Assembly: GCA_947175175.1 (NCBI GenBank)
Contig: CAMWLV010000025.1
Location: 1-35,062, forward strand
DNA length: 35,062 nt
Source: an uncultured Lachnospiraceae bacterium
GTDB lineage: Bacteria; Bacillota; Clostridia; Lachnospirales; Lachnospiraceae
Direction of reading: 5' to 3'
Part shown: positions 1-20,044 of the stretch, one piece after another
How positions within the stretch are numbered: position 1 is the first letter of the stretch
How the letters are laid out: each line of letters begins with the position of its first letter
Translations under genes and position numbers: made by a program
Notes under the pieces: model-generated
What the model saw: only the letters and a program-made list of their open reading frames with translations
What the model was told of the DNA's origin: nothing
Database searches by the model: none

Positions 1-363
1 ATGATATGCTTCCTCCATTTCGTCAGATATCCATGTCCCCTCGTTAAACTCTCTCTTGATCCGGCAGCGATGCATGGTATCCGCAAAATCTCTGTTCAAA
101 ACTACCCGAAGCACATGTTTTTTCATATATTTCTTCATAGAACGTGAAATATGTATCTCATTTGGAAAAATGACAAAACGTTCTTTCGGACACCACCACA
201 AGATTTCCTCTCCAGGATTATACCATGGAAAGATTCCGTGGGAGTATGCCAACAGAAGGCGCTCAACACACAGATCTCCTCCTACCGCAAGCAACCCATC
301 TTCCCTTGCAAGTGTCGGATGGGGGAATGAAATTTCTTTCTCATTGATACGAAATACTGGCAT
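1..363 (-). CDS. aat: Leucyl/phenylalanyl-tRNA--protein transferase, N-terminal part (runs off window)
   Basis: The enzyme transfers Leu or Phe from aminoacyl-tRNA to proteins with N-terminal Arg or Lys, creating a primary N-degron read by ClpS. The minus strand from 363 to position 1 is open for 121 codons with no stop, so the C-terminal half lies outside the window. The family signature is clear: a start MPVFRINEKEISFPHP, then DGLLAVGGDL, a HGIFPWY block, EILWWCPKERFVIFP, HISRSM, and EGTWISDEMEEAYH at the edge. The ATG at 363 matches the usual family start. An in-frame ATG at 405 would add 14 residues but has no ribosome binding site. The gene lies about 110 bp downstream of clpA on the same strand. 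In E. coli aat also lies close to clpS-clpA. Identity is near certain; the exact start is less so. Confidence 0.93.
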   Translation of the reverse strand, partial: MPVFRINEKEISFPHPTLAREDGLLAVGGDLCVERLLLAYSHGIFPWYNPGEEILWWCPKERFVIFPNEIHISRSMKKYMKKHVLRVVLNRDFADTMHRCRIKREFNEGTWISDEMEEAYH

Positions 364-472
364 GTTCCATTTTCGCCTCTCTTCTATATTTATTAAATAC
401 TCCATTTGTCAGTCATTATGTCTGTTCATGATTCTGCACAGATTTTGTCTTAGTGTTCTTTTTTCGTTTCTT

Positions 473-2776
473 CTATGAATATTCCAGCCGGAAACTATCA
501 TCAACGACAGATAGCTTACATTTTCCGCCTTTTTTCAGCTTGCCAAACAAGATCTCGTCCACCAGGAGCGGCTTCACTTCTCCCTGAATCACACGGTCAA
601 TCTCCCTTGCGCCAAATTCCGTCGTGATCCCCTTCTTTTTCAGAAGTTTTTTCGCCGCTGCGTCAACAGACAGCTCTACCTTTTTCAACAATAACATTTT
701 CTGCAGTTCTCCGAGCTTTTTCTCTGTAATCTGCCCTGCCATCGTCTCGTCCATACCATGAAATACGACAATCTTATTCAAACGGTTGCGAAATTCCGGC
801 TGGAAGATGCGCTTCACTTCCTCCATAATCACATCCGCCTTGACATCCTGTCCTGTAAAACCGATTCCATGCTTTCCAATCCGGCTCGCTCCAGCGTTGG
901 AGGTCATGATGACAATCACATTGCGGAAATCTGCCTTTCTGCCCTGATTGTCTGTAAGCGTGGCATAATCCATCACCTGGAGGAGAATGTTGTAAATATC
1001 GGGGTGTGCTTTTTCGATTTCATCTAACAGAAGCACCGCATGAGGATTCTTGCGGATTTCTTCTGTCAGAAGTCCGCCCTCCTCATAGCCGACATACCCC
1101 GCTGGTGAACCGATTAATTTTGCCACTGCATGCTTTTCCTCGTACTCACTCATGTCAAAGCGGATCAGTTTCACGCCGAGTTCGTCCGCCAGACTCCTTG
1201 CGATCTCTGTCTTTCCAACGCCTGTCGGTCCTACAAAGAGCAGGCTCGCCAGAGGTTTTCCTTCTTCCAGAAGCCCCGCCCTTGAGAATTTCACTGCATT
1301 GACAACCTGCGCAATCGCCTCATTCTGACCATATACACGATTCATCAGCCGCTTTTCAAGTGTTGCGAGCGTCTCAATCTCATCATGTTCAACCACCTGC
1401 TTTGGAATCTGGCAGGTTTTGGACAGGATTTCGTCAATCAAATCCTTCCCTACAGTCTGTATTTTCTTTCCCAGTGGGTGCAGGCGGCGGTATGCGCCCG
1501 CCTCATCGATTAAGTCAATCGCCTTGTCAGGCAGATAGCGCTCGTTAACATATTTTGCACTCATGCTGACCGCATATGCGATCACACCCTTTCCATAAGT
1601 CACCCCATGGAATTTCTCATAATTCTTTTTCAATCCCTCCAGGATGCGCGTTGCATCTTCTATATCGGGTTCCTTGATGTCAATATTTTGAAAACGCCGC
1701 ACCAGACTCTTGCTTTTCTCAAAATGCTTTTTGTATTCCTCATATGTAGTCGCACCGATAAAACGTACACTTCCGGCCGCCAGATAAGGCTTTAACATAT
1801 TTGAAATGTCAAAAGCGCCTCCGTTGACCGCACCAGCGCCGACAATGTTGTGAATCTCATCGATGTAGACGATTGGTTTCTCCTCGCGGCTAATACTGTC
1901 CATAACCCGCTTGAAGCGTTTCTCAAAATCACCTCGAAACTGTGTCCCGGCGATCAGACTTCCAAGATCAAGTGAAAAAATCTTCGCACCCTTTAGCGGT
2001 TCGGGAACCTGATCTTCCTCAATCAATCTGGCAAGACCATAGGTAATCGCCGTCTTTCCAACGCCTGGTTCTCCGATATGGAGCGGATTATTCTTCTCCT
2101 TTCGGCATAGAATCTGCATCGTGCGTTCCAATTCTTCTTCCCTGCCAATCAGCGGATTGACACCCTCCAACGCATCATTCAGACAGACAGCAAACTGCTG
2201 CCATACTTTATCCGTTTTTTCCTCATCCTGCACATTTTCGTCATAAGAACCAGTTTCATTCGTCTCACTGACCAAACCTCTGTCATTCTTTTTGCTTCCA
2301 CTCCCAGCCCGCCTGTCAGCGGACAATTCTTCATATAAAATGGTCATCTGCTGCAAAAGTTCAGCGTGTTCTATCCCCTGCAGCTGCATGTAGTAAACGG
2401 CATAGCTTTCCTCAAGTTCAAACATTGCATGGATAATGTGCATCAATCCGACTACGTTTTTTCCACTGCCCTGCGCCGACTGCCACGCAAAAGACAGCAT
2501 ACTTCCCATTCCGGCGGAAAACTCTGGATTTTGATTCGGATTTTCATATGTATTTCCCTCGGAACTGACAGAAACCATATATTCGTTGAAATACCCCTCC
2601 AACTGCCTTGACAACTCTTGAACACTCCCACCGCAATCCTCAAATGCCTCCGCAAAAATCTTATTGCCGCAAATGACATACAACACCAGCTCAGGCGTCA
2701 CAAGTTCATAATGCCTGTCTTTTGCCAGAACCACTACGGAATTAATGATCTCCGCCACCTCTCTTGTTACCTGCAT
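473..2776 (-). CDS. clpA: ATP-dependent Clp protease ATP-binding subunit ClpA
   Basis: This is a Hsp100 unfoldase that feeds substrates into ClpP; 767 residues is typical of ClpA. Residues 1-150 form the ClpA-type N domain, the docking site for ClpS, followed by an acidic linker (about 155-195). D1 has Walker A GEPGVGKT (235-242), Walker B VYIDE (303-307) and the Arg-finger segment SLVRRF. D2 has Walker A GPTGVGKT (about 515), Walker B LLLDEIEKAH, sensor TSNAG and FRNRLN. There is no ClpB/ClpC middle coiled coil between D1 and D2. An IGF tripeptide at about residue 635 corresponds to the IGL/IGF loop that docks on ClpP, so it should act with ClpP, which is not in this window. The start is preceded by GGAGG. 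The gene follows clpS across two copies of a 63-bp repeat. Stop is TAG. Confidence 0.95.
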   Translation of the reverse strand: MQVTREVAEIINSVVVLAKDRHYELVTPELVLYVICGNKIFAEAFEDCGGSVQELSRQLEGYFNEYMVSVSSEGNTYENPNQNPEFSAGMGSMLSFAWQSAQGSGKNVVGLMHIIHAMFELEESYAVYYMQLQGIEHAELLQQMTILYEELSADRRAGSGSKKNDRGLVSETNETGSYDENVQDEEKTDKVWQQFAVCLNDALEGVNPLIGREEELERTMQILCRKEKNNPLHIGEPGVGKTAITYGLARLIEEDQVPEPLKGAKIFSLDLGSLIAGTQFRGDFEKRFKRVMDSISREEKPIVYIDEIHNIVGAGAVNGGAFDISNMLKPYLAAGSVRFIGATTYEEYKKHFEKSKSLVRRFQNIDIKEPDIEDATRILEGLKKNYEKFHGVTYGKGVIAYAVSMSAKYVNERYLPDKAIDLIDEAGAYRRLHPLGKKIQTVGKDLIDEILSKTCQIPKQVVEHDEIETLATLEKRLMNRVYGQNEAIAQVVNAVKFSRAGLLEEGKPLASLLFVGPTGVGKTEIARSLADELGVKLIRFDMSEYEEKHAVAKLIGSPAGYVGYEEGGLLTEEIRKNPHAVLLLDEIEKAHPDIYNILLQVMDYATLTDNQGRKADFRNVIVIMTSNAGASRIGKHGIGFTGQDVKADVIMEEVKRIFQPEFRNRLNKIVVFHGMDETMAGQITEKKLGELQKMLLLKKVELSVDAAAKKLLKKKGITTEFGAREIDRVIQGEVKPLLVDEILFGKLKKGGKCKLSVVDDSFRLEYS

Positions 2777-2787
2777 AATCTTCCTCC

Positions 2788-2926
2788 ATAAGTTTCACTC
2801 TAACTCCCATTCGCCCGCTTCGGTGGGTACTCAAATCAGGATGGTGAAATTTTGATTTCACTCTAACTCCCATTCGCCCGCTTCGGTGGGTACTCAAATC
2901 AGGATGGTGAAATTTTGATTTCACTC
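2788..2926. repeat. 63-bp structured repeat, two tandem copies between clpS and clpA
   Basis: Two nearly identical 63-bp units lie head to tail, followed by the first bases of a third. A diverged single copy is at 6784-6850. Each unit has two potential hairpins on the plus strand: GTGAAAT-TTTG-ATTTCAC, and a six-pair stem closed by a TTCG loop (gcccgc-ttcg-gtgggt). The stop codon of clpS (TGA, 2921-2923) lies inside the first unit. On the gene strand each unit ends in GGGAG, a possible ribosome binding site. Because 63 is a multiple of three, the units also read as an open 21-residue peptide repeat, probably by chance. A REP- or MITE-like element is the simplest reading. Confidence 0.85.
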
Positions 2927-3214
2927 TAATGTCATCCGAAACGGAAATCCCTCCGCCTTTGCGCGGGCTGCCGCAGTCTGCACCTTGGAAACAGCGATGT
3001 CATATGGATATGCACCTACCACAGCTTTTCCAACTTCATGCACCAACAGCATCAATCGCTCTGCTTCCATCTCATCTTTATGAAAGATATCCCTCAATAT
3101 ATCAACCACAAAATCCATCGTAGTAAAGTCGTCATTGTGCATGATCACCTTGTAATGTTTCGGTTCCCGTATTTTGATGCGGGTACTCTCTCTTGTTTCT
3201 CCCTGTATTGCCAT
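2921..3214 (-). CDS. clpS: ATP-dependent Clp protease adaptor protein ClpS
   Basis: ClpS is the N-recognin that binds substrates with N-terminal Leu, Phe, Trp or Tyr and delivers them to the ClpA N domain. The 97-residue length is normal. Key residues are present: the N27-D28-D29 cluster in VIMHNDDFTTMDFV, which binds the substrate alpha-amino group, and H59 in LLVHEVGKAVVGAYPYDIA. A short polar N-terminal tail (1-18) precedes the fold, as expected. A GAGGT ribosome binding site lies about 10 nt before the ATG. The stop TGA lies within the 63-bp repeat that separates it from clpA. Upstream is the VWA gene, with an 82-bp gap containing a long palindrome. Aat and ClpA are the next two genes, so the pathway context is complete. 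Confidence 0.96.
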   Translation of the reverse strand: MAIQGETRESTRIKIREPKHYKVIMHNDDFTTMDFVVDILRDIFHKDEMEAERLMLLVHEVGKAVVGAYPYDIAVSKVQTAAARAKAEGFPFRMTLE

Positions 3215-3296: not shown

Positions 3297-4490
3297 TCAG
3301 ATTTTCTTCACTTTTTTCCCAAACTGAGACAAGTCCTGTCCCTTCAATGCTTTTTCCAGAAGTTCTGGTAAAAGCTGCGGCGTGCACGCAAAACAAGGTA
3401 CTCCAAGCCCTGCTAATCTCTGCGCCGTCTGTTCGTCATAATACGGCTTGCCGCCATCTGAGATTGCAAGCAGGCTGATCACAGTCACCCCAGATTCCTT
3501 CATATCACCGATGCGCCGCAGCAATCCGGCTCTGTTGCCTCCCTCATACAAATCCGATATCAGGAAAAACAGCGTCTTAGCCGGATTCTCTATAAACTGC
3601 TCACAGTATGCAATCGACTTGTTGATATCTGTACCGCCGCCAAGCTGGAATCCAAACAGCAAATCGACCGGATCATCACTCTTCTCTGTCAGGTCTACGA
3701 TATTTGTGTCAAATGCGACAATCCTCGTCTTGATGCTTGCCATGCTCGCCAGAATACAGCTGATAATCGACGAATAAATCACGGATTCTCCCATCGAACC
3801 ACTCTGGTCAATATCGAGTATGATGGTCCACTTGTTTGCCGCTGTAATACTCGTTCGGTCAAAAAAGTAAAAATGTTCTGGCACGATGGTTTTGAGTTCT
3901 GGATTGTAGTGCTTTAAATTGCGGTTTATCGTCATTTTAAAATCCATTGCCGACGCTGACGGAATAGGCGAATGCTTTCTTTTATTGACCGCAGCAGTCA
4001 CAGCACGTCGGATATCCTGCTCCAGCAGTTTGTTGATCTCCTCCACAATTTTCTTGATAAATTCGCGGACGCTTTCTTTCGAACGCTTCGGTATCTGGTC
4101 TTTTAACATCAATATGGTAGATGCAAGACCGATATCCGGTTCCATATTTTCCAAAAGCTCCGGTTCAAACAACAGCTGTTTCAGCCCGCAGCGCGTCACC
4201 GCATCATTTTGAATAACAGTCACCAGCTCCTTGTCAAACAGCGTCCGCACATCACCAAGCCACCGGCTGATCTGCGGGTTCGACGGTCCCCTTCCACCGC
4301 CGCGCCCGCCTCCGCCGCCTCCCTGGCTGCCAAAACCGCCAAGTTCTGACCGATTGTATATGGAAGCCAGCGCCTGATCCATCAAATCCTGTTCCTGGGA
4401 CAGCGTCAGATCCGTCATTCCTGAAAGACGCTTCTCACTCTCCTGCCCCAGAATCAGACGCCATCTGCCGATCTGTTCTTTTATTTCCAT
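3297..4490 (-). CDS. VWA domain-containing protein, YehP-like
   Basis: This is the VWA partner of a MoxR-type ATPase. The 397-residue protein has a helical N-terminal half (1-215) with a Gly/Arg-rich linker at 51-68, and a VWA domain from about 221. The metal-ion site is intact: D228, S230 and S232 in DIDQSGSMGES, T287 in GGGTDI, and D313 in ISDLYEGG. It resembles E. coli YehP over its length (N-terminal RWRLILG, then DQSGSM, GGGT and the AFDT block), from memory. No signal peptide or membrane segment is visible, so it is cytoplasmic. The gene starts 29 bp after the stop of the DUF5682 gene, indicating one transcript. Metal-dependent binding of a client or of the MoxR hexamer is the expected role by family; the client is unknown. 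Confidence 0.88.
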   Translation of the reverse strand: MEIKEQIGRWRLILGQESEKRLSGMTDLTLSQEQDLMDQALASIYNRSELGGFGSQGGGGGGRGGGRGPSNPQISRWLGDVRTLFDKELVTVIQNDAVTRCGLKQLLFEPELLENMEPDIGLASTILMLKDQIPKRSKESVREFIKKIVEEINKLLEQDIRRAVTAAVNKRKHSPIPSASAMDFKMTINRNLKHYNPELKTIVPEHFYFFDRTSITAANKWTIILDIDQSGSMGESVIYSSIISCILASMASIKTRIVAFDTNIVDLTEKSDDPVDLLFGFQLGGGTDINKSIAYCEQFIENPAKTLFFLISDLYEGGNRAGLLRRIGDMKESGVTVISLLAISDGGKPYYDEQTAQRLAGLGVPCFACTPQLLPELLEKALKGQDLSQFGKKVKKI

Positions 4491-4519
4491 ATGAAACCTC
4501 CCTCGTATAAAAGGTTATA

Positions 4520-6784
4520 TTAAAGATCAAAATCAAAATCATCCAGACTGTCAATCATCTGCTGCGAACTCTCGTCAAGCACAGCATTTACCACCTCGCT
4601 GACCTCCTGACCATTCAGCCCCAGGATCTCACCGAGATTTTCCGCGATCTGGTCCTTCTCCACTGCCGAGAAATCCGCAAAAGCACGCCGCAAAAACACC
4701 AGTGCCCGTTTAAACTCCTCGTCGTCCAATGTGACAAGATAGTCATTCAGGCTTTCCCAGAGTGACAGTCTTGCAATCAGCGCATATCTGTTTTTCATGG
4801 CAAGCCCTTCGAACCAGCCAGCACCCAGATCCGCAGGAATTCCCTTTGATAAACGCCTTGACACCTCTGTGCGCAGCTGCTGCGTATTCATAGCTCCACG
4901 CTCCAGAAGGATTGCTGCCGCAAATCCTGACAGCTTCGTGTTTAGGTCATCCCGTTCTGAAATATCGTCGAGCACCTTGATCCACTCTGCGTTATCCAGA
5001 AAATCGTGCGCCAGTTCTGCGCTGTTTAACTGCTCCATTGCAGTGATGATGACCTGACTCGCCGCATCGTCGCACACACAGGCTGATTCCAGTATCAGAC
5101 AGGCTCTGTAAAACAATTGCTGCAGAATCGGCTCCAGCGGCTTGGAATCGATCCGCCTGATATTTCCATACTGGACGACAACAGAAAGCCGCTGTGCCGT
5201 CTTCGCCAGATCCTCCACCGACGCGGCGTCAACTGCCATTCTCTGCAGTGCTGCAGTCGCATAACCTACCGCTTTCTCCATGCCACAGCAGCAGGCATCT
5301 TCTATGACAAGCGCGATTTCTCCCATTTTGGTCGCATTTTCCACGCGCTCCTTCATGGCAAAGGAAGCCGCACCGTCAATCGTATCCCCCTTTAACGCCG
5401 ATTCCACCAGCTCAATCTCCGCCTCCGGCGTCCAGCGCACTACCCAGTGTTCAGACCATGTCGCATTGTCCTGATTGACCGATTGCTGCTGGGCAAAGCT
5501 CACATTGATCACACGCAGCCGATGTAGGAAAAAAGACCGGTGCAGATCAATAAAAGCTGACTTTTCTGAACTGACACGCCTGTTTTCCCGTAGGTCAAGC
5601 ATCAAGTCCTGCGCTGTGATATCGCGGTATTTCTCGAGTTTCAAGTCCTTTAGCTGTCTGTAAAAATCCTCCTGAATGCTGGTGCGGCTCACCCCGTCAG
5701 GCAGCGCCCCGATTGCCGTTCCGATCTCCGTATCCGCCGTCCCAAGGATAATGTTTGACACACTTCCTTCACCAATGCAGGTCTGCGCAGCATCGCGCAA
5801 GTCCCTGAGCGATGCAATCGTTCCGCCACGCAGCTGCGCCAGGGACATCGCCAGCCTGACCGCCTCGATCACAGACGCGGACGAAACAGGATTCCCCTTC
5901 TCGCGCTGGTATTTGGCAAGCCGTATCAGATAGCTGTAAACAGCATACATCGGCTCACCTTTATTCAAGCCCTCCCACAAGAGTGCATAGTAAGCAGGCG
6001 CCTTGTTTCCAGCGCCGTATCCTGCCCGCGTGGAAAGACGATAGTACGAATAAGGCATCAGGGTATGATTTGCCCCAACCTTTGGCATTTTGGACAGGTC
6101 TTCGTCGGATTCCTGCCAGTTTTTTAACCCTTCCACATGATAGGAACCCGTTACCACGACAATGTCCTCCGGTTCAATGCCAGAGTCTACAGCCTTCTTG
6201 ATCTGCTGACGCATATATGCCTCGCGAAGCACCGTCTCCGCCCAGTCATTTTCTTTTCCTTCTGTGAGACTTCTGATGTTGGCGCCAAAGCTGTTTGCCC
6301 CCAGATGATAGGCTTCCATACTGCCCGCCTGCTCCATGACGCGCTCCCAGAAGGTGTCATGCCCATCTTCACCGCTCTTCTGGTCAAGCTGCTCATAGAC
6401 ACTGATTCCAGAATTTATTCTTGCTTCTTCCCCCTCTGCCTCCTGCATACCACATTCGGGTATCGCCAGAAAGGTCTCTGAGGGCAAATCCATAAAACGA
6501 CACTCCACATGATGCATATGACACCACTGTATCGCCTGATACTCCGGCGAGTATTCCGCAAATGGATACAACACTGTCCTCACGGGTGCTTCCTTGGTGT
6601 AGGCAAGCACCGCAATTGGAGGCTTTGTCTCCTTGCGCACCATATCGGAGATCATGTCCTCAAAATCGCTTGGACCCTCAACCAGCACAAGTTTTGGCTT
6701 CTTTTCATCTAAGAATCCTCTCAGGTAATATGCCCCCGCAGGCGATAAATGCCGTATTCCGAAAAAATTTGGATTATTTTTCAT
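4520..6784 (-). CDS. DUF5682-type protein, YehM-like
   Basis: Cytoplasmic protein of 754 residues. The N-terminal third has GIRHLSPAG (G9-H12), LVLVEGP (E36) and a later VVVTGSYHVEG (H near residue 215). These resemble the paired GxxH motifs and acidic residue of the TraB/Tiki/ChaN-like hydrolase superfamily, so this part may be an enzyme; that is my inference. The remainder is predominantly helical. By neighbourhood (MoxR before, VWA after) it matches E. coli YehM. The chosen ATG at 6784 has GGGAG five bases upstream. A GTG at 6847, overlapping the moxR stop and preceded by AAGGAG, would add 21 residues encoded entirely by the 63-bp repeat and cannot be excluded. Confidence is high for the family and low for biochemical function. 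Confidence 0.82.
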   Translation of the reverse strand: MKNNPNFFGIRHLSPAGAYYLRGFLDEKKPKLVLVEGPSDFEDMISDMVRKETKPPIAVLAYTKEAPVRTVLYPFAEYSPEYQAIQWCHMHHVECRFMDLPSETFLAIPECGMQEAEGEEARINSGISVYEQLDQKSGEDGHDTFWERVMEQAGSMEAYHLGANSFGANIRSLTEGKENDWAETVLREAYMRQQIKKAVDSGIEPEDIVVVTGSYHVEGLKNWQESDEDLSKMPKVGANHTLMPYSYYRLSTRAGYGAGNKAPAYYALLWEGLNKGEPMYAVYSYLIRLAKYQREKGNPVSSASVIEAVRLAMSLAQLRGGTIASLRDLRDAAQTCIGEGSVSNIILGTADTEIGTAIGALPDGVSRTSIQEDFYRQLKDLKLEKYRDITAQDLMLDLRENRRVSSEKSAFIDLHRSFFLHRLRVINVSFAQQQSVNQDNATWSEHWVVRWTPEAEIELVESALKGDTIDGAASFAMKERVENATKMGEIALVIEDACCCGMEKAVGYATAALQRMAVDAASVEDLAKTAQRLSVVVQYGNIRRIDSKPLEPILQQLFYRACLILESACVCDDAASQVIITAMEQLNSAELAHDFLDNAEWIKVLDDISERDDLNTKLSGFAAAILLERGAMNTQQLRTEVSRRLSKGIPADLGAGWFEGLAMKNRYALIARLSLWESLNDYLVTLDDEEFKRALVFLRRAFADFSAVEKDQIAENLGEILGLNGQEVSEVVNAVLDESSQQMIDSLDDFDFDL

Positions 6785-6850
6785 ACTAACTCCCATTTGC
6801 CCGCTTCGGCGGGCACTCAAATCAGGATGGTGAAATTTTAATTTCACACT
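6784..6850. repeat. Single copy of the 63-bp structured repeat between moxR and the DUF5682 gene
   Basis: A diverged copy of the unit at 2788-2926. It has the same two plus-strand hairpins, here perfectly paired: GTGAAAT-TTTA-ATTTCAC and GCCCGC-TTCG-GCGGGC. It is flanked on the gene strand by near-duplicate segments, GGAGTTAGTGTGAAA before and GGAGTTAGTATGAAA after. Removing one unit would restore an ATGA stop/start overlap between moxR and the DUF5682 gene. This suggests the repeat was inserted or duplicated at a coupled gene junction. Confidence 0.85.
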
Positions 6851-7932
6851 AACTCCTTACATGCCTTGTACAATCCCAGCCACTCAGAGCCGCGCTTCTT
6901 CATGACATTCTCGAGATACTCCTTCCATGCTACCTGGTCCTTATCCTCGTCCTTGATGACAGCTCCCTGCAATGCAGCCGCCAGATCCTCGTTTGTGATC
7001 GTACCGTTTCCAAAGCTTCCCGCCAATGCCATACTGTTGCACAAGAGCGATATTGCCTCTGCGGTGGAGAGAACACCCGATGTCCCCTTTACCTTCTGTG
7101 CGCGATCCAGCGTCTCCCCACAGCGAAGCTCCCTAAATATCGTACATACTTTCTCTATCACCTCATCTGCAGGCTGCTTTGCATTCAGATCAAGATTTTC
7201 TGACAATTGTGTCACTCGGGTTCTTACAATCTCCATCTCGGAGTCCAGATTTGCCGGTGCAGGGAGCACGACGATATTAAATCGGCGCTTCAACGCGGCG
7301 GACATTTCATTGACGCCCTTATCCCTTGTGTTTGCCGTCGCAATCACCGAAAATCCCTTTTTCGCAGCTACTTCTATCGAAAGTTCCGGGACAGAGATTC
7401 TCTTTTCTGACAAAATGGAAATCAGTGCGTCCTGTACCTCTGAGGCACAGCGCGAAATCTCCTCGACACGCGCAATGGTTCCTGTCTCCATCGCGTTGAA
7501 AACCGGACTTTTCAGCATCGCTTCGTGCGATGGTCCCTGCGCGATCAGCATCGCATAGTTCCACGAATATTTGATCTGCTCCTCTGTCGTTCCGGCGGTT
7601 CCCTGTATTACTTTTGTGGAATCACCGTTGATGGCAGCAGTCAGATGCTCGGATAGCCAGCTTTTTGCTGTTCCCGGCTCACCGATCAACAGTAATGCCC
7701 GATCTGTTACCAGGGTTGATATCGCAATCTCCACAAGACGCTCATGACCTATGTATTTGGGCGTGATTTCCGTCTTTCCAACCTTTCCTCCGCAGATATA
7801 CGTCTTTACGGACTGCGGGGACATTCTCCACCCTGTCGGGATCGGATTTTTCTCCGCCGCGATCAATGCATCAATTTCCTTCTGAAATAACTGCTCTGCT
7901 GGCAGTCTTAACACTGTTTCATTTTTTTCCAC
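6844..7932 (-). CDS. MoxR-family AAA ATPase, YehL-like
   Basis: A 362-residue hexamer-forming ATPase of the MoxR group, expected to work with the VWA protein two genes downstream. Walker A is GEPGTAKS (84-91) in LLIGEPGTAKSWLSEHL. The Walker B region reads ARVEEI (155-159): the usual first Asp is Glu, as I recall also for E. coli YehL, so this is probably a subfamily trait rather than decay. Sensor 1 is N201 in IATANTRD, and the Arg-finger region is ALKRRFN (213-219). The N-terminal 60 residues are a family-specific extension. The stop codon falls within the 63-bp repeat. It begins 16 bp after the broken HEAT-like gene, consistent with one operon. The remodelling substrate is unknown. Confidence 0.9.
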   Translation of the reverse strand: MEKNETVLRLPAEQLFQKEIDALIAAEKNPIPTGWRMSPQSVKTYICGGKVGKTEITPKYIGHERLVEIAISTLVTDRALLLIGEPGTAKSWLSEHLTAAINGDSTKVIQGTAGTTEEQIKYSWNYAMLIAQGPSHEAMLKSPVFNAMETGTIARVEEISRCASEVQDALISILSEKRISVPELSIEVAAKKGFSVIATANTRDKGVNEMSAALKRRFNIVVLPAPANLDSEMEIVRTRVTQLSENLDLNAKQPADEVIEKVCTIFRELRCGETLDRAQKVKGTSGVLSTAEAISLLCNSMALAGSFGNGTITNEDLAAALQGAVIKDEDKDQVAWKEYLENVMKKRGSEWLGLYKACKELV

Positions 7933-7948
7933 TTGTCATACCCCTTTC

Positions 7949-8188
7949 TTATCGCTGCTTTTCGATCCATTCATCGAAAGCACCCACTACAATATTACCC
8001 TGATTGACTTCACCTGTTTTCATCATCTCACTGAGCGTCCGCGCTTCCTCCATGCGGGCATTTAGATCACCCGGCATATTTTTCAGATAATCCTGAAGCT
8101 GCCATTGCTGATTGAGCAGTCTTGGATTACTCTTAAAAAGGTGCACTGCAAGCCCCTTACAGGTAGTCCAGCCGCATGTCTTCATCAT
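7949..8188 (-). pseudogene. Detached C-terminal fragment of HEAT-like paralog A
   Basis: These 79 residues match the C-terminal end of paralogs B and C: MKTCGWTTCKGLAV here against MKACGWTTCKGLGV in B, then a PGD...EEARTxxEM segment shared by all. It is out of frame with the 557-residue upstream part, which ends at 8157. Compared with paralog B about 83 bp (some 27 codons) are missing at the junction, and 83 is not a multiple of three. The two ATG codons at 8188 and 8185 could allow reinitiation, so a split protein is possible. No convincing ribosome binding site is visible inside the upstream coding sequence. Most likely the remnant of a deletion. Confidence 0.8.
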
Positions 8189-9830
8189 TTAACGCTACCC
8201 AGTTCGTCAGAATCCCATCCGTCTCTTTTGTGAAATGTTCTTTCAGCCATTCTACAAGTTCTTTTGCATGCTGTAAGCGGATTGGTCTCACAACGCTTTT
8301 ATTATAGACATCCACATAAGAGCCATAGAATACATAACTGTTCCTTCGCTGATCCCATATGACATATGCCGCAGCATGAGTGATTGCCTCTATGCACTTT
8401 TTGGACTGTTTTGCAACAAACAGTACTTTATCCCTGACCTGTTCTTCAAGCCAGTCCACACAATCTTCATCCCGGGAAAATTTTACAATAACAGCAGCCG
8501 ACAAAAATTTTGCATTTGATTTTCCAGAATCCTTGTCCTGATACAGCTCCAAAGCAAGTTCCTGTAAATCTGTATCAGGATTGACAATCAGGGAATGCTG
8601 CAGTATTTTTGCCAATACCATTTCAATATCATCGCATATGATCGTACTATCCCAATATGTCTTGGAGCGCAACACGCCATACTGCACGATATTACGTTCA
8701 TAGGATTTCATCCAGATTTCCTTCTCTGCTGCATGCAGTAAACGGTTTATCTTTCCTTTATGCAAAAGCATCTTCCTGTAACATTCACAGACATGTGTTC
8801 CCCCTTTTCCAAAAAGAGCCCTCACAGTATCCAACAGCCTTTCTGCCAGTTCTGTTTTTTCCTTTTCGCCTGCACTGCCTATGCAATCCAGTTTGTCAAG
8901 CATCTGCTCACAGCTTACTGCGACCAGCTCTGCCGCCCAGTTTGTCGTTGTATTCCTCAGATACATTAAAATATTCTCTGGTTTTTTCTTTGCCAGTTTT
9001 CTAAAAATGTTTTCTGCGTCCGCATCCTGCATCTCTGCAAGCGATTCAAAAACCTTATCTTTATTCTTGCCTTTTTCTGTCTTTGACAGATCGCAGAGCA
9101 GTGAGACATTTTTCGGTTCGTGACGAAGCGCATCAATCAATTCGGTACGCACATCCTTCTGTGCCTCGGCAAGCATTCTGATATAAAACTCATTTGCCTC
9201 GGCACCAGCAAGTGCGCTGATCACCTTCACACGGCGCACCATCTCCTTCTTGCCCTTCGGGTCAAAATCCCTGTACAGCGCAGGCAGAACCGTCTTATCA
9301 TTTTCTTCGATCATCCATCGCTCTGCCTGATCTGCAAGTTCTGCATAAGACGCACCCAGCGCTTGTACTAATGCATTTATTACACGATAATCCCTGAAAA
9401 GCTCAGGGTGCTCCTCATGGATATCACACACATATCCATAATGTCCTCCGCCTGATGTCGTTAGCGCTTCCAGAAGCTCCTTTAATGCAGAATATGGCGC
9501 ATTGACAATCAAGCTGCCCGCGTATTGCTCCATATTCAGCGCTCCCACAGACTCGACTTCTCCTACCATATCCACTGTTCCAAGCGTACAGATGACAGCA
9601 TCTGCCAGTGTGATCGTATCAAGCAACGCCCCCTGCACATTCTGACAATTCGGAGATAAAAGCTGTTCTGTCAATTGTCCTACCTTTGCAAAGACGGGAG
9701 AAGCTTTCTCCAACGGCTTGAAGGCATCGTATGCACGTTTCAATCGAAAATCCTCAGACAATAAATTAGTTCCTGCTATGGCAGCCGCGCGAAGGCGCTC
9801 GCGCAGTTCATAAATTGCTCCTGTATCCAT
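8157..9830 (-). CDS. HEAT-like repeat protein, paralog A (C-terminally truncated by frameshift deletion)
   Basis: First of three tandem paralogs by position, 557 residues against about 653-669 for the others. Conserved N-terminal blocks are IYELRERLRAAAIAGTNLL, SPVFAKVGQLTEQLL, LLDTITLADAVICTLG, a GGGHYGYV segment, and DFDPKGKKEMVRRVKVIS. The rest is a series of paired helices suggesting a HEAT-type solenoid; no catalytic motif is evident. Reading continues normally to WVALNDEDM, then a frame change gives five aberrant residues and a stop. The lost tail is found at 7949-8188. The start ATG has GGAG about 10 nt upstream. It lies between paralog B and moxR. In E. coli the corresponding place next to yehL is taken by DUF4132/MolR-type proteins; homology to them is possible but not shown. 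Confidence 0.78.
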   Translation of the reverse strand: MDTGAIYELRERLRAAAIAGTNLLSEDFRLKRAYDAFKPLEKASPVFAKVGQLTEQLLSPNCQNVQGALLDTITLADAVICTLGTVDMVGEVESVGALNMEQYAGSLIVNAPYSALKELLEALTTSGGGHYGYVCDIHEEHPELFRDYRVINALVQALGASYAELADQAERWMIEENDKTVLPALYRDFDPKGKKEMVRRVKVISALAGAEANEFYIRMLAEAQKDVRTELIDALRHEPKNVSLLCDLSKTEKGKNKDKVFESLAEMQDADAENIFRKLAKKKPENILMYLRNTTTNWAAELVAVSCEQMLDKLDCIGSAGEKEKTELAERLLDTVRALFGKGGTHVCECYRKMLLHKGKINRLLHAAEKEIWMKSYERNIVQYGVLRSKTYWDSTIICDDIEMVLAKILQHSLIVNPDTDLQELALELYQDKDSGKSNAKFLSAAVIVKFSRDEDCVDWLEEQVRDKVLFVAKQSKKCIEAITHAAAYVIWDQRRNSYVFYGSYVDVYNKSVVRPIRLQHAKELVEWLKEHFTKETDGILTNWVALNDEDMRLDYL

Positions 9831-9886
9831 CCCTCTAAAACTCCAACTCCTCTCCCATATTCTGTCTTCATCTTATACAGACCTTA

Positions 9887-11848
9887 TCATCTGCTCCATC
9901 CGTCCATATAGCTCTCAAAATCTTCTACTTTCCAATTGTTTACTTTCAACTCCCCACTTCGAATCATCTCACAGATTGTGCGCGCTTCCTCTATGATCGC
10001 CTCATGATCTCCCGGCAGCGATGACACCATCCAGCTGCCTAAAATCCGCGCAGAAACAGGCTTTTTATCTTTTACAAACTTAACACCTAACCCTTTGCAG
10101 GTCGTCCATCCGCATGCTTTCATGTTGCTTAGATACTCGTGATTGTCCCCGGTTATCAATGCTTTTTTATAAAAGTATTCTCCCATCATTTTACACATTT
10201 CTTCATCATTGAATGGTACCCAGCGCGCCAGAATATCATCAACGTCCTTTGAGGAATGCTTCATCAACCACTCCATAATCCCTTTTGCATGCGATAATTT
10301 TATAGAACGTTCGATGCTTTTACACTCTGGGTAAGAAACGTTTATAAAAGAGCCATTCAATTCATAGCTATGCTTTTTTCCATCCCATCTGACATAAACA
10401 GCTGCCTCAGCGACTGCTTTCATCCGCGCTTTCGAAAACTTTGGCACAAGCAGCGCCTTATCCGTAACCTGTTCTTCAAGCCAGTCTGAACAGTCCTCAT
10501 CATTGGAAATTTTCACAGTGACAGCCGCAGGCAAAAATTTTACATTCTGAACCAACTCCATCGCGAGCGCCTGCAGATTCGAATCCGGATTGACGATCAG
10601 CGTATGATGTAAAATTTTTCCCAGCGCTGTTTCGACATCCCTCTCCTCCGTTTTGTACCTGAGCCAATATCGATCGGCTGACAGTACCCCATACAATAAT
10701 ATATCCTGATGCTCCTCATAAACGTTTTTGGGTTTCTGCCATGTTTCTTTGAACAGACCATTTAGCTTTTCTTTTTGCGCGAGCAGCTTTCTGTAGCATT
10801 CACAGATCCGTGCACCTCCTTTTCCAAACAATGCCCTCAATGCAATCTGCAGTTTATCTGATAATTCCCGCTTTTCCTTGTCCGAAATACTGCCTATCAT
10901 ATCCAGTTGACCAAGCATTTTCCCACAGATATCTGCCACCAGTTCTGCTGACCACTCTGTTGTTGTATATTTTAAATAAATTAAAACGGTTTCCGGCTTT
11001 TTCTTTGCCAGTTCCTTAAAAAAGTCATTTACCCTCTCGTCCTGTATCTCTGCAAGCAGTTCAAATACTTTATCCTTATTTTTTCCTTTTTCTGTCTTTG
11101 ACAGATCAAAAAGCAGGGAAAGATTGCCGCGCTCATGACGAAGCGCGTCAATTAATGCAGTGCGCACATCCTTCTGTGCTTCGTCAAGCATCTTAACATA
11201 AAAATCATTCGCCCCGGCTCCCGCAAGTGCACTGATCACATTGACACGGCGCACCATCTCTTTCTTGCCTTTTGGGTCAAAATCCTGATATAATACCGGC
11301 AGAATTGTCTTATCATTATCTTCTATCATCCACTGTTCTATCTGATCCGCAAGTTCTGCATAAGAGGCGCCTAACGCCTGTACCATCACATGTCTTACAC
11401 GATAATCGCGAAAAAGTTCAGGTTTGTTCTCATGTGTATCACATATGTACCCATAATGTCCGCCGCCTGATGTTGTCAGCGCCTCCAATAATCCTTTCAA
11501 AGCAGAATACGGTGCATTGATCATTACACTGCCTGTGTTTTCCTCTGCATTGATTGTTCCCGGAGACTCAATTTCTCCTGACACATCCACTTTCCCAAGT
11601 GTACATATGACAGCATCTGCCAGCGTAATGGTGTCAAGCAGCGCCCCCTGCACATTTTGGCAATCCGGTGTTAAGAGCTGTTCTGTCAATTGCCCGACCT
11701 TGGCAAACACAGGTGAAGCAGTCTCCAGTGGCTTGAATGCCTCGTATGCACGTTTCAATCGAAAATCCTCAGACAGCAGATTTGTTCCTGCCATGGCAGC
11801 TGCGCGAAGGCGCTCGCGCAAATCATAAATTGGTTCTGCATTCATCAT
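9887..11848 (-). CDS. HEAT-like repeat protein, paralog B
   Basis: Intact paralog of 653 residues. It shares nearly the whole N-terminal 280 residues with paralogs A and C (blocks YDLRERLRAAAMAGTNLL, TITLADAVICTLG, DFDPKGKKEMVRRV, KTEKGKNKDKVFE) and diverges more towards the C-terminus, which ends in the conserved GWTTCKGLG and PGD...EEART segments. No signal peptide, membrane segment or catalytic motif is visible; a helical solenoid used for binding is the likely design. The start ATG (11848, with a second ATG three bases on) uses an AAGGA site that overlaps the stop of paralog C only 7 bp upstream, so the two are translationally coupled. Function unknown; operon membership with MoxR and VWA suggests a scaffold or substrate-recognition role. 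Confidence 0.82.
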   Translation of the reverse strand: MMNAEPIYDLRERLRAAAMAGTNLLSEDFRLKRAYEAFKPLETASPVFAKVGQLTEQLLTPDCQNVQGALLDTITLADAVICTLGKVDVSGEIESPGTINAEENTGSVMINAPYSALKGLLEALTTSGGGHYGYICDTHENKPELFRDYRVRHVMVQALGASYAELADQIEQWMIEDNDKTILPVLYQDFDPKGKKEMVRRVNVISALAGAGANDFYVKMLDEAQKDVRTALIDALRHERGNLSLLFDLSKTEKGKNKDKVFELLAEIQDERVNDFFKELAKKKPETVLIYLKYTTTEWSAELVADICGKMLGQLDMIGSISDKEKRELSDKLQIALRALFGKGGARICECYRKLLAQKEKLNGLFKETWQKPKNVYEEHQDILLYGVLSADRYWLRYKTEERDVETALGKILHHTLIVNPDSNLQALAMELVQNVKFLPAAVTVKISNDEDCSDWLEEQVTDKALLVPKFSKARMKAVAEAAVYVRWDGKKHSYELNGSFINVSYPECKSIERSIKLSHAKGIMEWLMKHSSKDVDDILARWVPFNDEEMCKMMGEYFYKKALITGDNHEYLSNMKACGWTTCKGLGVKFVKDKKPVSARILGSWMVSSLPGDHEAIIEEARTICEMIRSGELKVNNWKVEDFESYMDGWSR

Positions 11849-11855
11849 ATTCTTA

Positions 11856-13826
11856 TTATCCTTTATACCAACTATTCATATATTCTTCCAGTTCTGCTGT
11901 ATTGAAATGTTTAACTTTCAGTTCTCCTCTTTTTATCAAACTGCAGACTGTGCGCATTTCTTCCATAATTGCCTCTTTATCCCCAGGCAGCATAGTCAGC
12001 CATCTATATAGAGACCATGTTGGAGTTGATGGTTCATTTTTAAGAATACTTACACCCAATCCCTTACATTCTTTCCATCCGCAATCCTTCATATAATCCA
12101 GATAAAAGCGGTTATCCGGAACAGTCAATGCTCTCTTATAGAAATATTCGCCCATCTCCCTGCATATCGTCTCATCATTTAATGGTACGAACTGTGCCAA
12201 TATCTTGTCAAGCTTTTGCGAGGGCTCCTGTTTTCGAAACCAGCTAATCATCTCTTTCACATACGGCAGATCAATTGTTCGCTCAGCACGCTTGTAATCT
12301 GTGTAATAGACATCTATATATGCACCATATAATTTATAACCATTCTTTTTCCGATCCCACGTGACATAATCCGCCGCCTCAATGACTGCATCCAAGCGCT
12401 CTTTCGCATGTCTGGACACAAGCAGTCCTTTCTCTGGGATCTGCTCTTCAATCCACTCTGCACAGTTTTCATCATTAGAAAATTTTACAGTTGCTGCCGC
12501 CGCCAGAAATTTGATGTTTGCTTTCTTAGGATCTCCATTCTGGTACAATTCCAAAGCAAGCGCCTGCAGGTCCGAATCCGGATTGGCAATCAGGGAATGA
12601 TGCAGAACCTTCCCCAACGCCGTCTCAATATCCAACACATCTGCTTTGTACCAATACTGACCGGGAGTCAGTACACCATAATAAAACGTATCACGCTCAT
12701 ATGTACCTTTTGACTCCTGCCAGGCTTCTTTGAGCAGCGTATTGATCTTATCCTTCTGTGCCAGCAATTTTCGGTAGCATTCACAGATCTGTGTTCCCCC
12801 TTTACCGAACATTGCCCGCACAATATCCTGCAGTCTGTCTGTCAACGCCTGTTTTTCCTTGTCTGAAGCATCGTCTATTGTGTCCAGTTTTTCAAGCATT
12901 TTATTGAAGATATTGACCACCAGCCCAACAGACCATTCTGTCGTTGAATTTCTAAGATATTTTAAGACAGTCTCAGACTTTTTCTTTGCCAGCTTCTGAA
13001 AAAAGTCATTGACCTCCTCCTCCCGCATTGCCGCGAGCATCTCAAATACCCTATCCTTATTTTTCCCTTTTTCTGTCTTTGTCAGTTGAAAAAGCAGAGT
13101 AACATTGCGTGGCTCAAACCGAAGTGCATTGATCAACTCTGTACGCACATCTTTCTGCGCCTCCGCGAGCATCTTGACATAAAAGTCATTTGCCTCTGCG
13201 CCTGCAAGTGCACTGATCACTTTCACACGGCGCACCATTTCTTTCTTGCCCTTCGGATCGAAATCCTTGTATAGCGCCGGCAGAATGGTCTTATCATTAT
13301 CTTCTATCAGCCATTGCTCCACATTATCCGCAAGCCCGGAATAAGAAGCACCCAACGCCTGTACTAAAGCATGATTTACACGATAATCCCGAAAAAGCTC
13401 AGGGTGATTTTCATGCATTTCACATACATATCCATAATGTCCGCCACCTGATGCTGTCAATGCCTCCAATAGCTCCTTCAATATAGAGTATGGTGCATTG
13501 ACAACCAAGCAGCCCGCATTTGTTTCCTCATTAATCGTTCCAGTAAAATCAAATTCCCCAGATACGTCCACTGTCCCAAGTGTACAGATGACAGCATCTG
13601 CCAGTGTGATGGTGTCAAGCAGCGCACCCTGCACATTCTGACAGTCTGGTGATAAGAGCTGTCCTGTCAATTGCCCTACCTTTGCAAAGACAGGCGAAGC
13701 TTTCTCCAGCGGCTTAAATGCCTCATATGCACGCCTTAACCGAAAATCCTCGGACAGCAGATTTGTTCCTGCCATAGCAGCTGCGCGAAGGCGCTCGCGC
13801 AAATCATAAATTGGTGTTGTATCCAT
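11856..13826 (-). CDS. HEAT-like repeat protein, paralog C
   Basis: Intact paralog of 656 residues, first of the tandem trio to be transcribed. The start chosen is the ATG at 13826, six codons inside the longest frame, because AGGAGGGTGGA directly precedes it and the protein then begins MDTTPIYDLRERLR, like its sisters. It carries the same N-terminal blocks as A and B and the C-terminal GWKECKGLGVS segment. Charged helical repeats with the KKKxE(T/N)VLxYLRN(S/T)TTEW block are shared with all four paralogs. Its stop overlaps the ribosome binding site of paralog B. Upstream is a 400-bp structured stretch with no gene, so transcription may start there or read through from the Nudix gene. Confidence 0.82.
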   Translation of the reverse strand: MDTTPIYDLRERLRAAAMAGTNLLSEDFRLRRAYEAFKPLEKASPVFAKVGQLTGQLLSPDCQNVQGALLDTITLADAVICTLGTVDVSGEFDFTGTINEETNAGCLVVNAPYSILKELLEALTASGGGHYGYVCEMHENHPELFRDYRVNHALVQALGASYSGLADNVEQWLIEDNDKTILPALYKDFDPKGKKEMVRRVKVISALAGAEANDFYVKMLAEAQKDVRTELINALRFEPRNVTLLFQLTKTEKGKNKDRVFEMLAAMREEEVNDFFQKLAKKKSETVLKYLRNSTTEWSVGLVVNIFNKMLEKLDTIDDASDKEKQALTDRLQDIVRAMFGKGGTQICECYRKLLAQKDKINTLLKEAWQESKGTYERDTFYYGVLTPGQYWYKADVLDIETALGKVLHHSLIANPDSDLQALALELYQNGDPKKANIKFLAAAATVKFSNDENCAEWIEEQIPEKGLLVSRHAKERLDAVIEAADYVTWDRKKNGYKLYGAYIDVYYTDYKRAERTIDLPYVKEMISWFRKQEPSQKLDKILAQFVPLNDETICREMGEYFYKRALTVPDNRFYLDYMKDCGWKECKGLGVSILKNEPSTPTWSLYRWLTMLPGDKEAIMEEMRTVCSLIKRGELKVKHFNTAELEEYMNSWYKG

Positions 13827-13850
13827 TCCACCCTCCTGTTTCATCTTCCT

Positions 13851-13988
13851 GTTACAGCATCAATCCATGCAAAATCGCTTCGCGATGTCAAAGCCATATA
13901 CCATGGCTTGATGCATCGCTGCCACTACGCTTTCTCACGCGGCTTGCAAAGCCATAATTTGCAGCGTAGTGCAATTCTGAACTGTAAC
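13851..13988. repeat. Inverted-repeat, multi-hairpin intergenic element
   Basis: The stretch is bounded by gttacag (13851-13857) and ctgtaac (13982-13988). It contains four stem-loops: ATCGC-TTC-GCGAT, AAGCCAT-ATACC-ATGGCTT, the nine-pair CACTACGCT (13923-13931) / AGCGTAGTG (13963-13971), and inside that GGCTT-GCA-AAGCC. A related short segment (gttacaagcatcaagccatgcaaaa) lies at 30245-30269. It looks like a MITE- or REP-type non-coding repeat. The following bases to about 14249 hold no gene I can support, so the whole 13845-14249 gap is non-coding as far as I can see. Confidence 0.65.
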
Positions 13989-14249
13989 TCCTATTTTCCA
14001 ATCAGACACATTTTCCCTTGAAATGCAAAGCCATACTTCCTTATTCGCTCCGGCGCAATCCCATTCGCAACCAATGATGCCTCGTACCCAGACTTTACAC
14101 CCGCAAAGCTCATAAAAGTCACCAGATACGTTCCCTATAGTTTCTTTAGTGCATATTCTCCCGAAAGGGATTTCGCTTCCCATACCTTGCGCCCCTCAAA
14201 TAAATCTCCTCTGTCGCGGTATTTGTTTGAAAATGCATTCGACTGTACG

Positions 14250-14648
14250 CTACCACTCCAACTCATAAACTCCATGCTTCTTAAAATCCTCTGCGATTCC
14301 GCCTACAAGCATTGTCTCACATTCCGCCTTTTCTACCCAGCGGTACTCAATATGCTCACTGCCCAAAACCACTTTTTCTTCTGTAGTGGAGCAAAGATAC
14401 ACAACAAAGATCACTTTTTTTCCACAGATCTCATCCAAAGAGGCATATAAAACACTCTCAGGAACTGCCTTCAATCCTGTCTCCTCAAACACTTCCCTCT
14501 CCAGGGCTTCTTCCAAAGACTCCCCTTCCTCTACTTTACCGCCTGGACCTTCCCATCCCCCAAAATCGTCGGGACTGCGGCGAATCAGCAAGGCTTTTTT
14601 CAAATTATGGTTAAGAATTACGCCTTTTACAACTATTTGAGCCTGCAT
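14250..14648 (-). CDS. Nudix (MutT-like) hydrolase
   Basis: Hydrolyses a nucleoside diphosphate linked to another group; the substrate cannot be read from sequence. The 132-residue protein has a perfect Nudix box, GGKVEEGESLEEALEREV followed by FEETGL, matching Gx5Ex7REUxEExGU. It is preceded by a GGWEGPGGKVEEGE context typical of MutT/8-oxo-dGTPase-like members. The start is the ATG at 14648, with GGAGGAGG eight bases upstream; an upstream in-frame ATG at 14702 lies inside the preceding gene and lacks such a site. It begins 22 bp after the AAA/PD-(D/E)XK gene and is probably co-transcribed. Whether it belongs functionally to the Yeh-type module is unclear. Confidence 0.9.
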   Translation of the reverse strand: MQAQIVVKGVILNHNLKKALLIRRSPDDFGGWEGPGGKVEEGESLEEALEREVFEETGLKAVPESVLYASLDEICGKKVIFVVYLCSTTEEKVVLGSEHIEYRWVEKAECETMLVGGIAEDFKKHGVYELEW

Positions 14649-14670
14649 TGGCTTCCTCCTCCAATATCCG

Positions 14671-16248
14671 TTACACGACTGCCTCCACAATTGTCTTCCC
14701 ACAGACTTGAATCTCTTTTACGCCGATTTCCTTTTCTTTGTTAAAGTTAAAGCTTAGCATATAGCCCTTATCCTTATGGTAATAATCCAGATACTCTGTA
14801 AGCTGCTTTTCGCCTCTTTCATTGTATTCCCTGCCATGCCAGATTTTCAGCTCGACAATAAACTGTTCCCCGAGATAATCGACGATAACATCCGTCCTCC
14901 GTTCATCCCTTGTCTGCGCTTCGATATAATAATTTCCTGTTCCATTGATAATCGGCTTTAAGTAGAGCAAAAAGAATTTCCGCCCATACTTTTCAATAAA
15001 ATCCGTATCCTTTTTGTTGTAAATCTCATCAAAGTATTCCACAAATTTTTCCAGAACCAAATCCATGTCCAGTCTGTTATATTTGATAAATTGGGACTTA
15101 TCTCTTCCGCCTTTTACAAATGCCTCACTCTCAAGTGCTTCCTTTGTCATAAAAAGATTCAGCAAATACATTTCAAAAATGCGGTTTGCTATCGCAACAT
15201 GACCGTTTTCCTCTGTCAGAAATCCAAACATTATGCCTATACTGACAGATTTTTCGTCGGGACTAAACGGAATTTTCCTACCCTGATATAATAAATCTTC
15301 TACCATGGAATACAGCTCCTTGTATTGGTCAAGCTGTTTCACCATACTTTCAAATAATGGCGTACTCTCCTTTAAGATATTTGCGACTGCTTTTGCCACA
15401 CCTTCCTTTGACCATGCCTTTTTTCGATTTTCAAAATCATTGCTTCCAGCAATTTTTTCATCAATACGCTTGCATATTGATGAAACAAGGACAGGATATC
15501 CAGAAGTATATTGATATATTTCCTCTGCCACTTTTGGAATATCCATCCCAGTATGATAATCTGCTTCATACTCTTCAAGCATAGATGCAATTTGACCAGA
15601 AGAAAAACTCATATCAATGTCAAAATCAGCAGCGATGTTCCATGGACTGTTGTATTGGTGTTCGGACTCAGGACGCAATTTTAGTTTTAAATTTTTGATA
15701 TTATACACTCCCGCAAGAATAACCGAATGGAAAATTGGCTTTTTATCGCGTTTCAGATAATATCCCCTAAGCTGTGCCAAAAAATCGATAAAAACCTGAT
15801 TATTACCTGCACTGTCAACCTCATCAATCATCAACACGATTGGCCGCGGACTGTTTTTACACATATTGCTCAGATCAATAAACAGCTCCTTTAAACCATA
15901 ACCAGCACTCTCAGATGCAGTCCATGGCAAAGTGATCATCTGATCTTCCATATCTTCCAGCGCCATTGAAATATCTTTTCTAAAAGCTTTCGCAAATACT
16001 GCTTCATCTGAAAAATCTTTCGTTCCCATCAACTGAAAATCCAGTGATATGACAATATACTCCTCTTCCAAATAACCTTCCAGCGCTTCCAGCGTCGTTG
16101 TCTTTCCATATTGTCGTCCCCGGTTGATCACGAAGTAGCTTCCCTCATCAACATAATCTTCTTTTATCTTTTTGACTCTATCATCGAGTTTTACCATATA
16201 GTGCCTTTGTGGTTTGCAAGATCCTGTAATGTTAAACCTGCGTCTCAC
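14671..16248 (-). CDS. AAA ATPase fused to PD-(D/E)XK nuclease-like domain
   Basis: Member of a large family abundant in Clostridia and Bacteroidetes (AAA-ATPase-like plus a C-terminal PD-(D/E)XK domain; Pfam PF09820 and PF08011 from memory). Of 525 residues, the N-terminal NTPase has Walker A GRQYGKT (44-50) and Walker B PIVLMIDEVDSAG (about 144). The C-terminal nuclease-like domain has IEAQTRDERRTDVIVDY and FIVELKIWHG, giving the D...ExK core, plus a conserved Gln/Tyr-rich tail. The GTG start at 16248 has GGGGGAG six bases upstream. The role of this family is not established; mobile or defence-associated functions are often proposed. It sits inside the block that separates the SWIM and HEAT-like D genes from the rest of the Yeh-type set. 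Confidence 0.88.
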   Translation of the reverse strand: MRRRFNITGSCKPQRHYMVKLDDRVKKIKEDYVDEGSYFVINRGRQYGKTTTLEALEGYLEEEYIVISLDFQLMGTKDFSDEAVFAKAFRKDISMALEDMEDQMITLPWTASESAGYGLKELFIDLSNMCKNSPRPIVLMIDEVDSAGNNQVFIDFLAQLRGYYLKRDKKPIFHSVILAGVYNIKNLKLKLRPESEHQYNSPWNIAADFDIDMSFSSGQIASMLEEYEADYHTGMDIPKVAEEIYQYTSGYPVLVSSICKRIDEKIAGSNDFENRKKAWSKEGVAKAVANILKESTPLFESMVKQLDQYKELYSMVEDLLYQGRKIPFSPDEKSVSIGIMFGFLTEENGHVAIANRIFEMYLLNLFMTKEALESEAFVKGGRDKSQFIKYNRLDMDLVLEKFVEYFDEIYNKKDTDFIEKYGRKFFLLYLKPIINGTGNYYIEAQTRDERRTDVIVDYLGEQFIVELKIWHGREYNERGEKQLTEYLDYYHKDKGYMLSFNFNKEKEIGVKEIQVCGKTIVEAVV

Positions 16249-16329
16249 TCTGTCTCCCCCTTCACATCTCAGAGATCATAACTTCGATTCTCATTCTTAG
16301 CAGCCCTGTCGTATTTGGCACTTTCAAAT

Positions 16330-17436: not shown

Positions 17437-17459
17437 AAATATGCTCCCCCTTTCCCCAA

Positions 17460-20031: not shown

Positions 20032-20044
20032 TTATTTATAAATA

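Follow-up and report, generated by a model that had tools for sequence, protein, structure and literature searches.

Does the genome of an uncultured Lachnospiraceae bacterium encode a Leu/N-degron pathway of proteolysis, and by which route did the genes for such a pathway come to lie where they are found? The question is raised by one end of a contig on which the genes for the adaptor ClpS, the unfoldase ClpA and the first half of the aminoacyl-transferase Aat follow each other along the minus strand, in the direction of transcription, within positions 1-3214. The window analysed here is this entire contig (G000:C25, 35,062 nucleotides (nt)), which belongs to a draft genome of 4.1 Mb in 249 contigs with a completeness of 86.5%. 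N-degron proteolysis has been studied mostly in Proteobacteria; in E. coli, Aat tags basic N-termini with Leu or Phe, ClpS reads them, and ClpA together with ClpP degrades the tagged proteins. Direct observation covers the presence of the genes, the conservation of key residues, the linkage of the genes and the pattern in which they co-occur across genomes; from this we propose with a probability of roughly 0.88 that the locus encodes a Leu/N-degron pathway with a history within the Clostridia, in which clpS-clpA is accessory, aat is optional and the linked genes apparently moved together.

A preliminary description of this DNA had placed clpS, clpA and an N-terminal part of aat in order on one strand, with N-D-D and His binding residues in ClpS and an IGF loop in ClpA, and all of this is borne out by the open reading frames, the Pfam matches and the alignment with E. 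coli. ClpS matches PF02617 with 105.5 bits against a cut-off of 23 (E 1.2e-30), the nine NCBIfam models that match it are all ClpS models, and clear structural matches were obtained for PDB entries 3o2b and 1mbu. Its alignment columns N-D-D, M and V-H, which we take to be the residues of the N-degron pocket, are identical to those of E. coli. ClpA matches E. coli ClpA over its full length and carries the Pfam domains AAA_2, AAA_lid_9, ClpB_D2-small and a weak Clp_N (22.9 bits against 20.7), and its best structural match is ClpA in PDB 7uiv (7.1e-195), ClpC chains scoring lower. It combines two AAA+ rings, a ClpA-type N-domain and the IGF/L loop, and visual inspection of the alignment with E. 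coli ClpA reveals no ClpC middle domain. The two Walker A/B sets, the docking loop (IGF here, IGL in E. coli) and the GYVG loop of D2 are kept, while the D1 pore loop reads Q-F-R here versus K-Y-R in E. coli; the Walker sites, docking loop and pore loops presumably have the roles known from E. coli. Among named records, the nearest ClpA matches come from Lachnospiraceae and Acetatifactor-like bacteria.

The third gene had been described as having no stop in the window, which is correct, and it is the contig end and not the window edge that cuts it, since the window is the whole contig. From an ATG at 405 the frame is open over 135 codons (1-405) and reaches the contig end without a stop codon. 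The Aat fragment matches PF03588 (Leu_Phe_trans) with 105 bits against 22.7 (E 4e-30), covering profile positions 2-89 of 171, and has a structural match in PDB 2dps (1.2e-32). L078 is the nearest of the named relatives, with identities of 97% for ClpA and of 99% for Aat over the 121 amino acids (aa) of the fragment; there the frame continues at the same place as an intact, full-length aat (12369-13076) with the motifs G-E-S and D-C-Q, which we take to be catalytic. Calling the cassette complete, as had been done, is therefore right for relatives, whereas for this genome, in which aat is cut, we infer the full three-gene set. It could be argued that aat is here a broken remnant and that only ClpS-ClpA is functional, acting on primary N-degrons only: the rest of the assembly (86.5% complete, a single PF03588 match) did not yield the second half of aat, and 18 of 74 testable related loci have no aat on the locus. 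We consider this very improbable in view of a frame that stays open up to the contig end, its near-identity to the intact Aat of L078, and an assembly that is incomplete and split into many contigs. As a separate observation, an aat frame of 302 aa in genome G194 (L028, 9867-10772) contains a mid-protein insertion of 24 residues plus an N-terminal extension; that the insertion is an in-frame copy of the window's 63-nt repeat (Table 1) was ruled out by eye.

The distribution of the three genes was determined in a family sample of 200 genomes, a class sample of 291 and a phylum sample of 249; the family coded f1 in these samples is Lachnospiraceae, an assignment made from the names of relatives, and other families are given by their codes. 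In the family sample, ClpS was found in 17 of 200 genomes and true ClpA in the same 17, and all eight genomes with Aat are among them. The ClpA scores are bimodal, 17 genomes reaching at least 793 bits and the rest not exceeding 295 bits, with one genome unmatched, and the low-scoring matches fit ClpC/ClpB. clpS adjoins clpA in 17/17 genomes, and aat follows clpA in five, lies on another contig in three and was not found in nine. Within the genus, ClpA is present in 25 of 38 genomes, and in 13 of the 18 with a completeness of 90% or above and no more than 5% contamination. The class sample yielded ClpS above the cut-off in 12/291 and Aat in 10/291 genomes; in family f55 the order clpS-clpA-aat holds in 5/5 genomes having both, and in family f43 aat lies apart from clpS-clpA (2/2 genomes). 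In the phylum sample the only genome with Aat (1/249) is that of the window itself. Two genomes of family f56 in the class sample have Aat and no ClpS match; their Aat is divergent, with three close-set copies in G418 (L172) and one in G324 (L171), and is perhaps a transferase fold put to another use.

A second collection comprises 80 named loci gathered by similarity to the window's ClpA, and is hence biased to its clade and includes some near-copies. Here clpS stands beside clpA in 76 loci and about 5 kb away in one (L106), the contig ending first in three; in 52 loci the next gene after clpA, read in the same direction, is aat; four have aat at another place on the locus, 18 have none although 700 nt or more of sequence was available, and six could not show it. 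Since the same gene order and neighbours occur in Lachnospiraceae bacterium A4 and in IMSAGC_011, whose record titles do not label them as metagenome-assembled genomes, a binning artefact is unlikely. One locus (L113) with clpS-clpA 70-73% identical to the window stands in a record titled Candidatus Gastranaerophilales, and this contig is probably misassigned.

By analogy with the E. coli system, from which we infer every biochemical step, Aat would transfer Leu or Phe from aminoacyl-tRNA onto proteins whose N-terminal residue is basic, ClpS would bind Leu, Phe, Tyr or Trp at the N-terminus and dock on the N-domain of ClpA, and ClpA would unfold the substrate and feed it to ClpP, encoded elsewhere in the genome. 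In genomes with ClpS-ClpA and without Aat, reading would be confined to N-termini already destabilising in themselves. ClpP was found in 18/18 genomes searched, and in the window's genome there are three matches of 238-291 bits and one weak match. We give little credence to the idea that ClpS works here mainly with ClpC rather than ClpA. ClpS does work with ClpC1 in mycobacteria, according to passages of PMC10149685, and some Clp/Hsp100 match is present in 199 of the 200 family genomes; but ClpS occurs only alongside full ClpA (17/17) and is missing from the remaining 183, of which 182 have a ClpC/ClpB-like match, and clpS and clpA are adjacent.

All trees were computed under LG+G4 without a mixture model, the outgroup-rooted ClpA tree and the Aat and ClpA trees of 50 cassettes being quick trees, and the outgroups were Proteobacteria only, so that donors from other phyla lie outside the comparison. 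In the ClpA tree, the 17 family rows form one clade which three of the five f43 rows adjoin, and f55 and the other two f43 rows lie further off. In the Aat tree, the two f43 rows stand beside the family and f55 stands apart; the window's Aat has identities of 64-99% with the remaining Lachnospiraceae-type sequences of this tree, 55-57% with f43 and 48-52% with f55. The housekeeping trees of RpoB and GyrA concur in a clade of five genomes (G194, G048, G111, G033 and G046; GyrA support 100/98) and in f43 as one group. In approximately unbiased (AU) tests, however, the ClpA data reject both the five-genome clade (p-AU 2.4e-84) and the single f43 group (p-AU 1.9e-117) and, less strongly, the RpoB pair G000+G004 (p-AU 0.007), and the ClpA groupings tested are in turn rejected by RpoB (p-AU 6.8e-61 and 1.3e-109) and by GyrA (p-AU 1.8e-4 and 8.6e-65). 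The conflict thus lies within the family and in one other family. One genome with a partial rpoB (G016) was left out of the ClpA/RpoB comparison, and four (G112, G174, G402 and G482) were left out of the GyrA tree, having no match above the gyrA cut-off; in two of these, gyrA matches lie in overlong open frames (G402:C1, 2037 aa; G482:C1, 2107 aa), perhaps owing to an intein.

Aat and ClpA were further compared across 50 cassettes, namely 43 of the 52 named ones, two of the five from the family sample and all five from f55, the named cassettes omitted being near-copies, truncated loci and some with a divergent ClpA start. The two trees have 21 of 47 splits in common (shuffled mean 0.3, maximum 2), and well supported splits are never in conflict. 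Since ClpA clashes with both RpoB and GyrA, and Aat agrees with ClpA, movement within the Clostridia is likely, and the simplest reading suggested by these trees is that the linked cassette genes moved between clostridial lineages together.

The main rival to a movement of the genes as a unit is duplication with differential loss, in the form of a purely vertical descent since an early ancestor within the Clostridia, accompanied by numerous losses, in which the tree conflict would reflect an old clpA duplication or poor resolution. Such a descent would accommodate the single clade of family ClpA with other Clostridia as its neighbours, as well as the patchiness within the genus (25/38), which requires frequent losses or gains; it has to be reconciled with a strong conflict against two independent housekeeping genes, with the lack of a second ClpS in any family-sample genome (one match each) and with the lack of a second full ClpA among the matches listed, for which five candidates were scored per genome. 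We therefore regard it as unlikely, while granting it a substantial minority share. Far less credible is an acquisition of the cassette from Proteobacteria. It would draw on the proximity of the three genes in E. coli, where aat lies 1.2 kb from clpS-clpA, and on identity alone, by which E. coli Aat (47%) is barely more distant than f55 Aat (48-52%). Yet aat of E. coli is encoded on the other strand, past serW and infA, the window's Aat is closer to Lachnospiraceae-type and f43 proteins, and clostridial ClpA forms one clade separate from the three proteobacterial rows (support 100 in the outgroup-rooted tree). A recent proteobacterial gift is likewise not supported, the closest ClpA and Aat relatives being other Clostridia. 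Among phages, 25 records contain a ClpS relative, all less than 60% identical and 24 of them named for Gram-negative genera, so that this collection holds no near phage source; among plasmids, the Aat matches (37 records) and ClpA matches (2282 records) were all less than 60% identical.

Returning to the pathway with a history of movement within the Clostridia, several findings weigh against it. None of the three proteins reaches its NCBIfam cut-off: the best ClpS models score 84.6 against 149 and 84.2 against 112, TIGR02639 as the top model for ClpA scores 977.5 against 993.15, and aat as the best model for the incomplete Aat fragment scores 79.8 against 143.55. The window's Aat is without the C-terminal half that bears the catalytic motifs in relatives. 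clpA itself appears broken in L153, where the sole match is a 332-codon frame at the end, and interrupted in G171 (L040), where the final stretch is in a different frame. Because nine of the 17 genomes with ClpS and ClpA are without an Aat match, ClpS-ClpA must also function without Aat. Finally, the Aat tree is weakly rooted (78/57), ClpA agrees in part with the RpoB and GyrA trees, e.g., in placing G033 with G046, and the conflict could reflect old duplication and loss.

As for the expectations set out at the start, the genes are uncommon in family and phylum as had been supposed, and neither of the two outcomes named there as refuting was obtained; the counts together with the tree conflict speak against universal, vertically inherited genes. 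Transfer, which had been considered, is likely as movement within the Clostridia and loses its footing as a gift from an E. coli-like donor, and the suggested kinship to the E. coli arrangement is not upheld.

Table 1. Features of the window around the clpS-clpA-aat locus.
Feature	Position	Strand	Remarks
aat, N-terminal part	1-363	minus	121 codons; ATG at 363 chosen by homologues
clpA	473-2776	minus	767 aa; two AAA+ rings, IGF ClpP-docking loop
Tandem 63-nt repeat, two copies	2793-2933		fills most of the clpS-clpA spacer
clpS	2921-3214	minus	97 aa; N-degron binding adaptor; Pfam, E. coli alignment and PDB matches
VWA (CoxE-like) gene	3297-4490	minus	directly upstream of clpS, gap 82 nt
DUF5682 gene	4520-6784	minus	start at 6784 set by eye
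MoxR-type AAA ATPase gene	6844-7932	minus	family match

Upstream of clpS and on the same strand, genes for a MoxR-type ATPase, a DUF5682 protein and a VWA protein precede the cassette (Table 1) in the window and in 11 related loci. The gap between the VWA gene and clpS measures 6-107 nt in ten of these 12 loci and about 2 kb in the other two, of which the one inspected (L079) has an additional gene there. Co-transcription with the cassette in the window's clade is possible, judging from this arrangement. The scans for promoters and terminators found sites no more frequently than in shuffled sequence, and no conserved operator was seen among 13 related loci compared by eye: in the 110 nt that precede clpS, only L078 is similar to the window. 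A general link of the MoxR-DUF5682-VWA genes with the cassette was rejected, as, of the loci compared, only the window and its 11 near relatives have these genes next to clpS, several other loci being truncated upstream of it and so uninformative. One may speculate, and we do so with considerable doubt, that clpS-clpA-aat is a horizontally moving accessory module of Lachnospiraceae which, in the Acetatifactor-like clade, has become the distal end of a MoxR-DUF5682-VWA operon and acts jointly with it; this capture and the joint action of MoxR/VWA remodelling and N-degron proteolysis are suggested by the conserved adjacency in the 12 loci alone. The stretch 3297-22054 also contains a SWIM-domain gene and four related genes for proteins of 557-669 aa, two of which were searched in Pfam without a match.

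Besides its two tandem copies in the clpS-clpA spacer, the 63-nt repeat has one copy before the DUF5682 gene (6779-6856). The DUF5682 frame stays open to 6847, and the repeat, which makes up most of 6785-6847, provides a spurious early start there. The exact 32-nt core pattern has one further copy in the genome (L208, G000:C15:14776), after a pta-like gene named by eye. In each of the three places, the clpS-clpA spacer, the stretch before the DUF5682 gene and this one, the repeat extends over the stop codon of the preceding gene, which in the spacer is clpS. A 23-nt core of the repeat is found in 0/80 related loci, and the spacer of the nearest relative (L078) is without the repeat. An RNA element was rejected, two of three folds being no better than shuffles and one (6793-6855) better (z -3.59). 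By eye, the clpS-clpA spacers of L079, L080, L090, L091 and L106 carry differing inserts, among them palindromic stretches and a 0.35-kb stretch with inverted ends, and the spacer of about 5 kb in L106 contains glycosidase-like and chemoreceptor-like genes.

No literature on this cassette in Lachnospiraceae was found in a search beyond whose reach most subscription papers lie, and a text search for ClpS, ClpA and Lachnospiraceae together matched no paper. According to passages of PMC11352710, an aat-like region of one Lachnospiraceae strain served as a strain-specific marker in quantitative PCR. The primers given there map inside clpA and not aat, both in A4 (L082, 10268-10708; 2 and 3 mismatches) and in L081 (3 and 4 mismatches). 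The marker thus appears to amplify clpA of this cassette, the strain's own sequence lying outside the comparison, and the mismatches fit a patchy, fast-varying locus.

A pathway that is rare but well conserved among gut Clostridia, and that seems to have been transferred, offers a natural comparison set, in which close relatives with ClpS-ClpA-Aat, with ClpS-ClpA alone or with neither could show what the pathway and its tagging enzyme contribute. Compared with known systems, the Leu/N-degron genes of E. coli (NC_000913.3, 922913-927432) comprise the same three families with the same key residues and the same clpS-clpA order, at identities of about 43% for ClpA and about 47% for the Aat fragment; they differ in aat, which in the window follows clpS and clpA as a third gene in the same orientation. 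In Firmicutes, no obvious ClpS was noted for S. mutans or B. subtilis in passages of PMC5742171, where the data are not shown. In a clostridium, ClpA and ClpS have already been published for C. thermocellum (PMC12203970), in a study whose available passages describe ClpA in protease assays on anti-sigma factors with ClpS left out; C. thermocellum shares these two proteins with the window, and the same passages mention neither aat nor a cassette. The window's own gene order recurs in [Clostridium] symbiosum ATCC 14940 (L127), Acetitomaculum ruminis (L150) and Lachnospiraceae bacterium A4, the MoxR-DUF5682-VWA neighbours being common to the window and A4 and not seen at the loci of the other two. 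Taken together, the cassette is a member of a known pathway type with a sporadic history.

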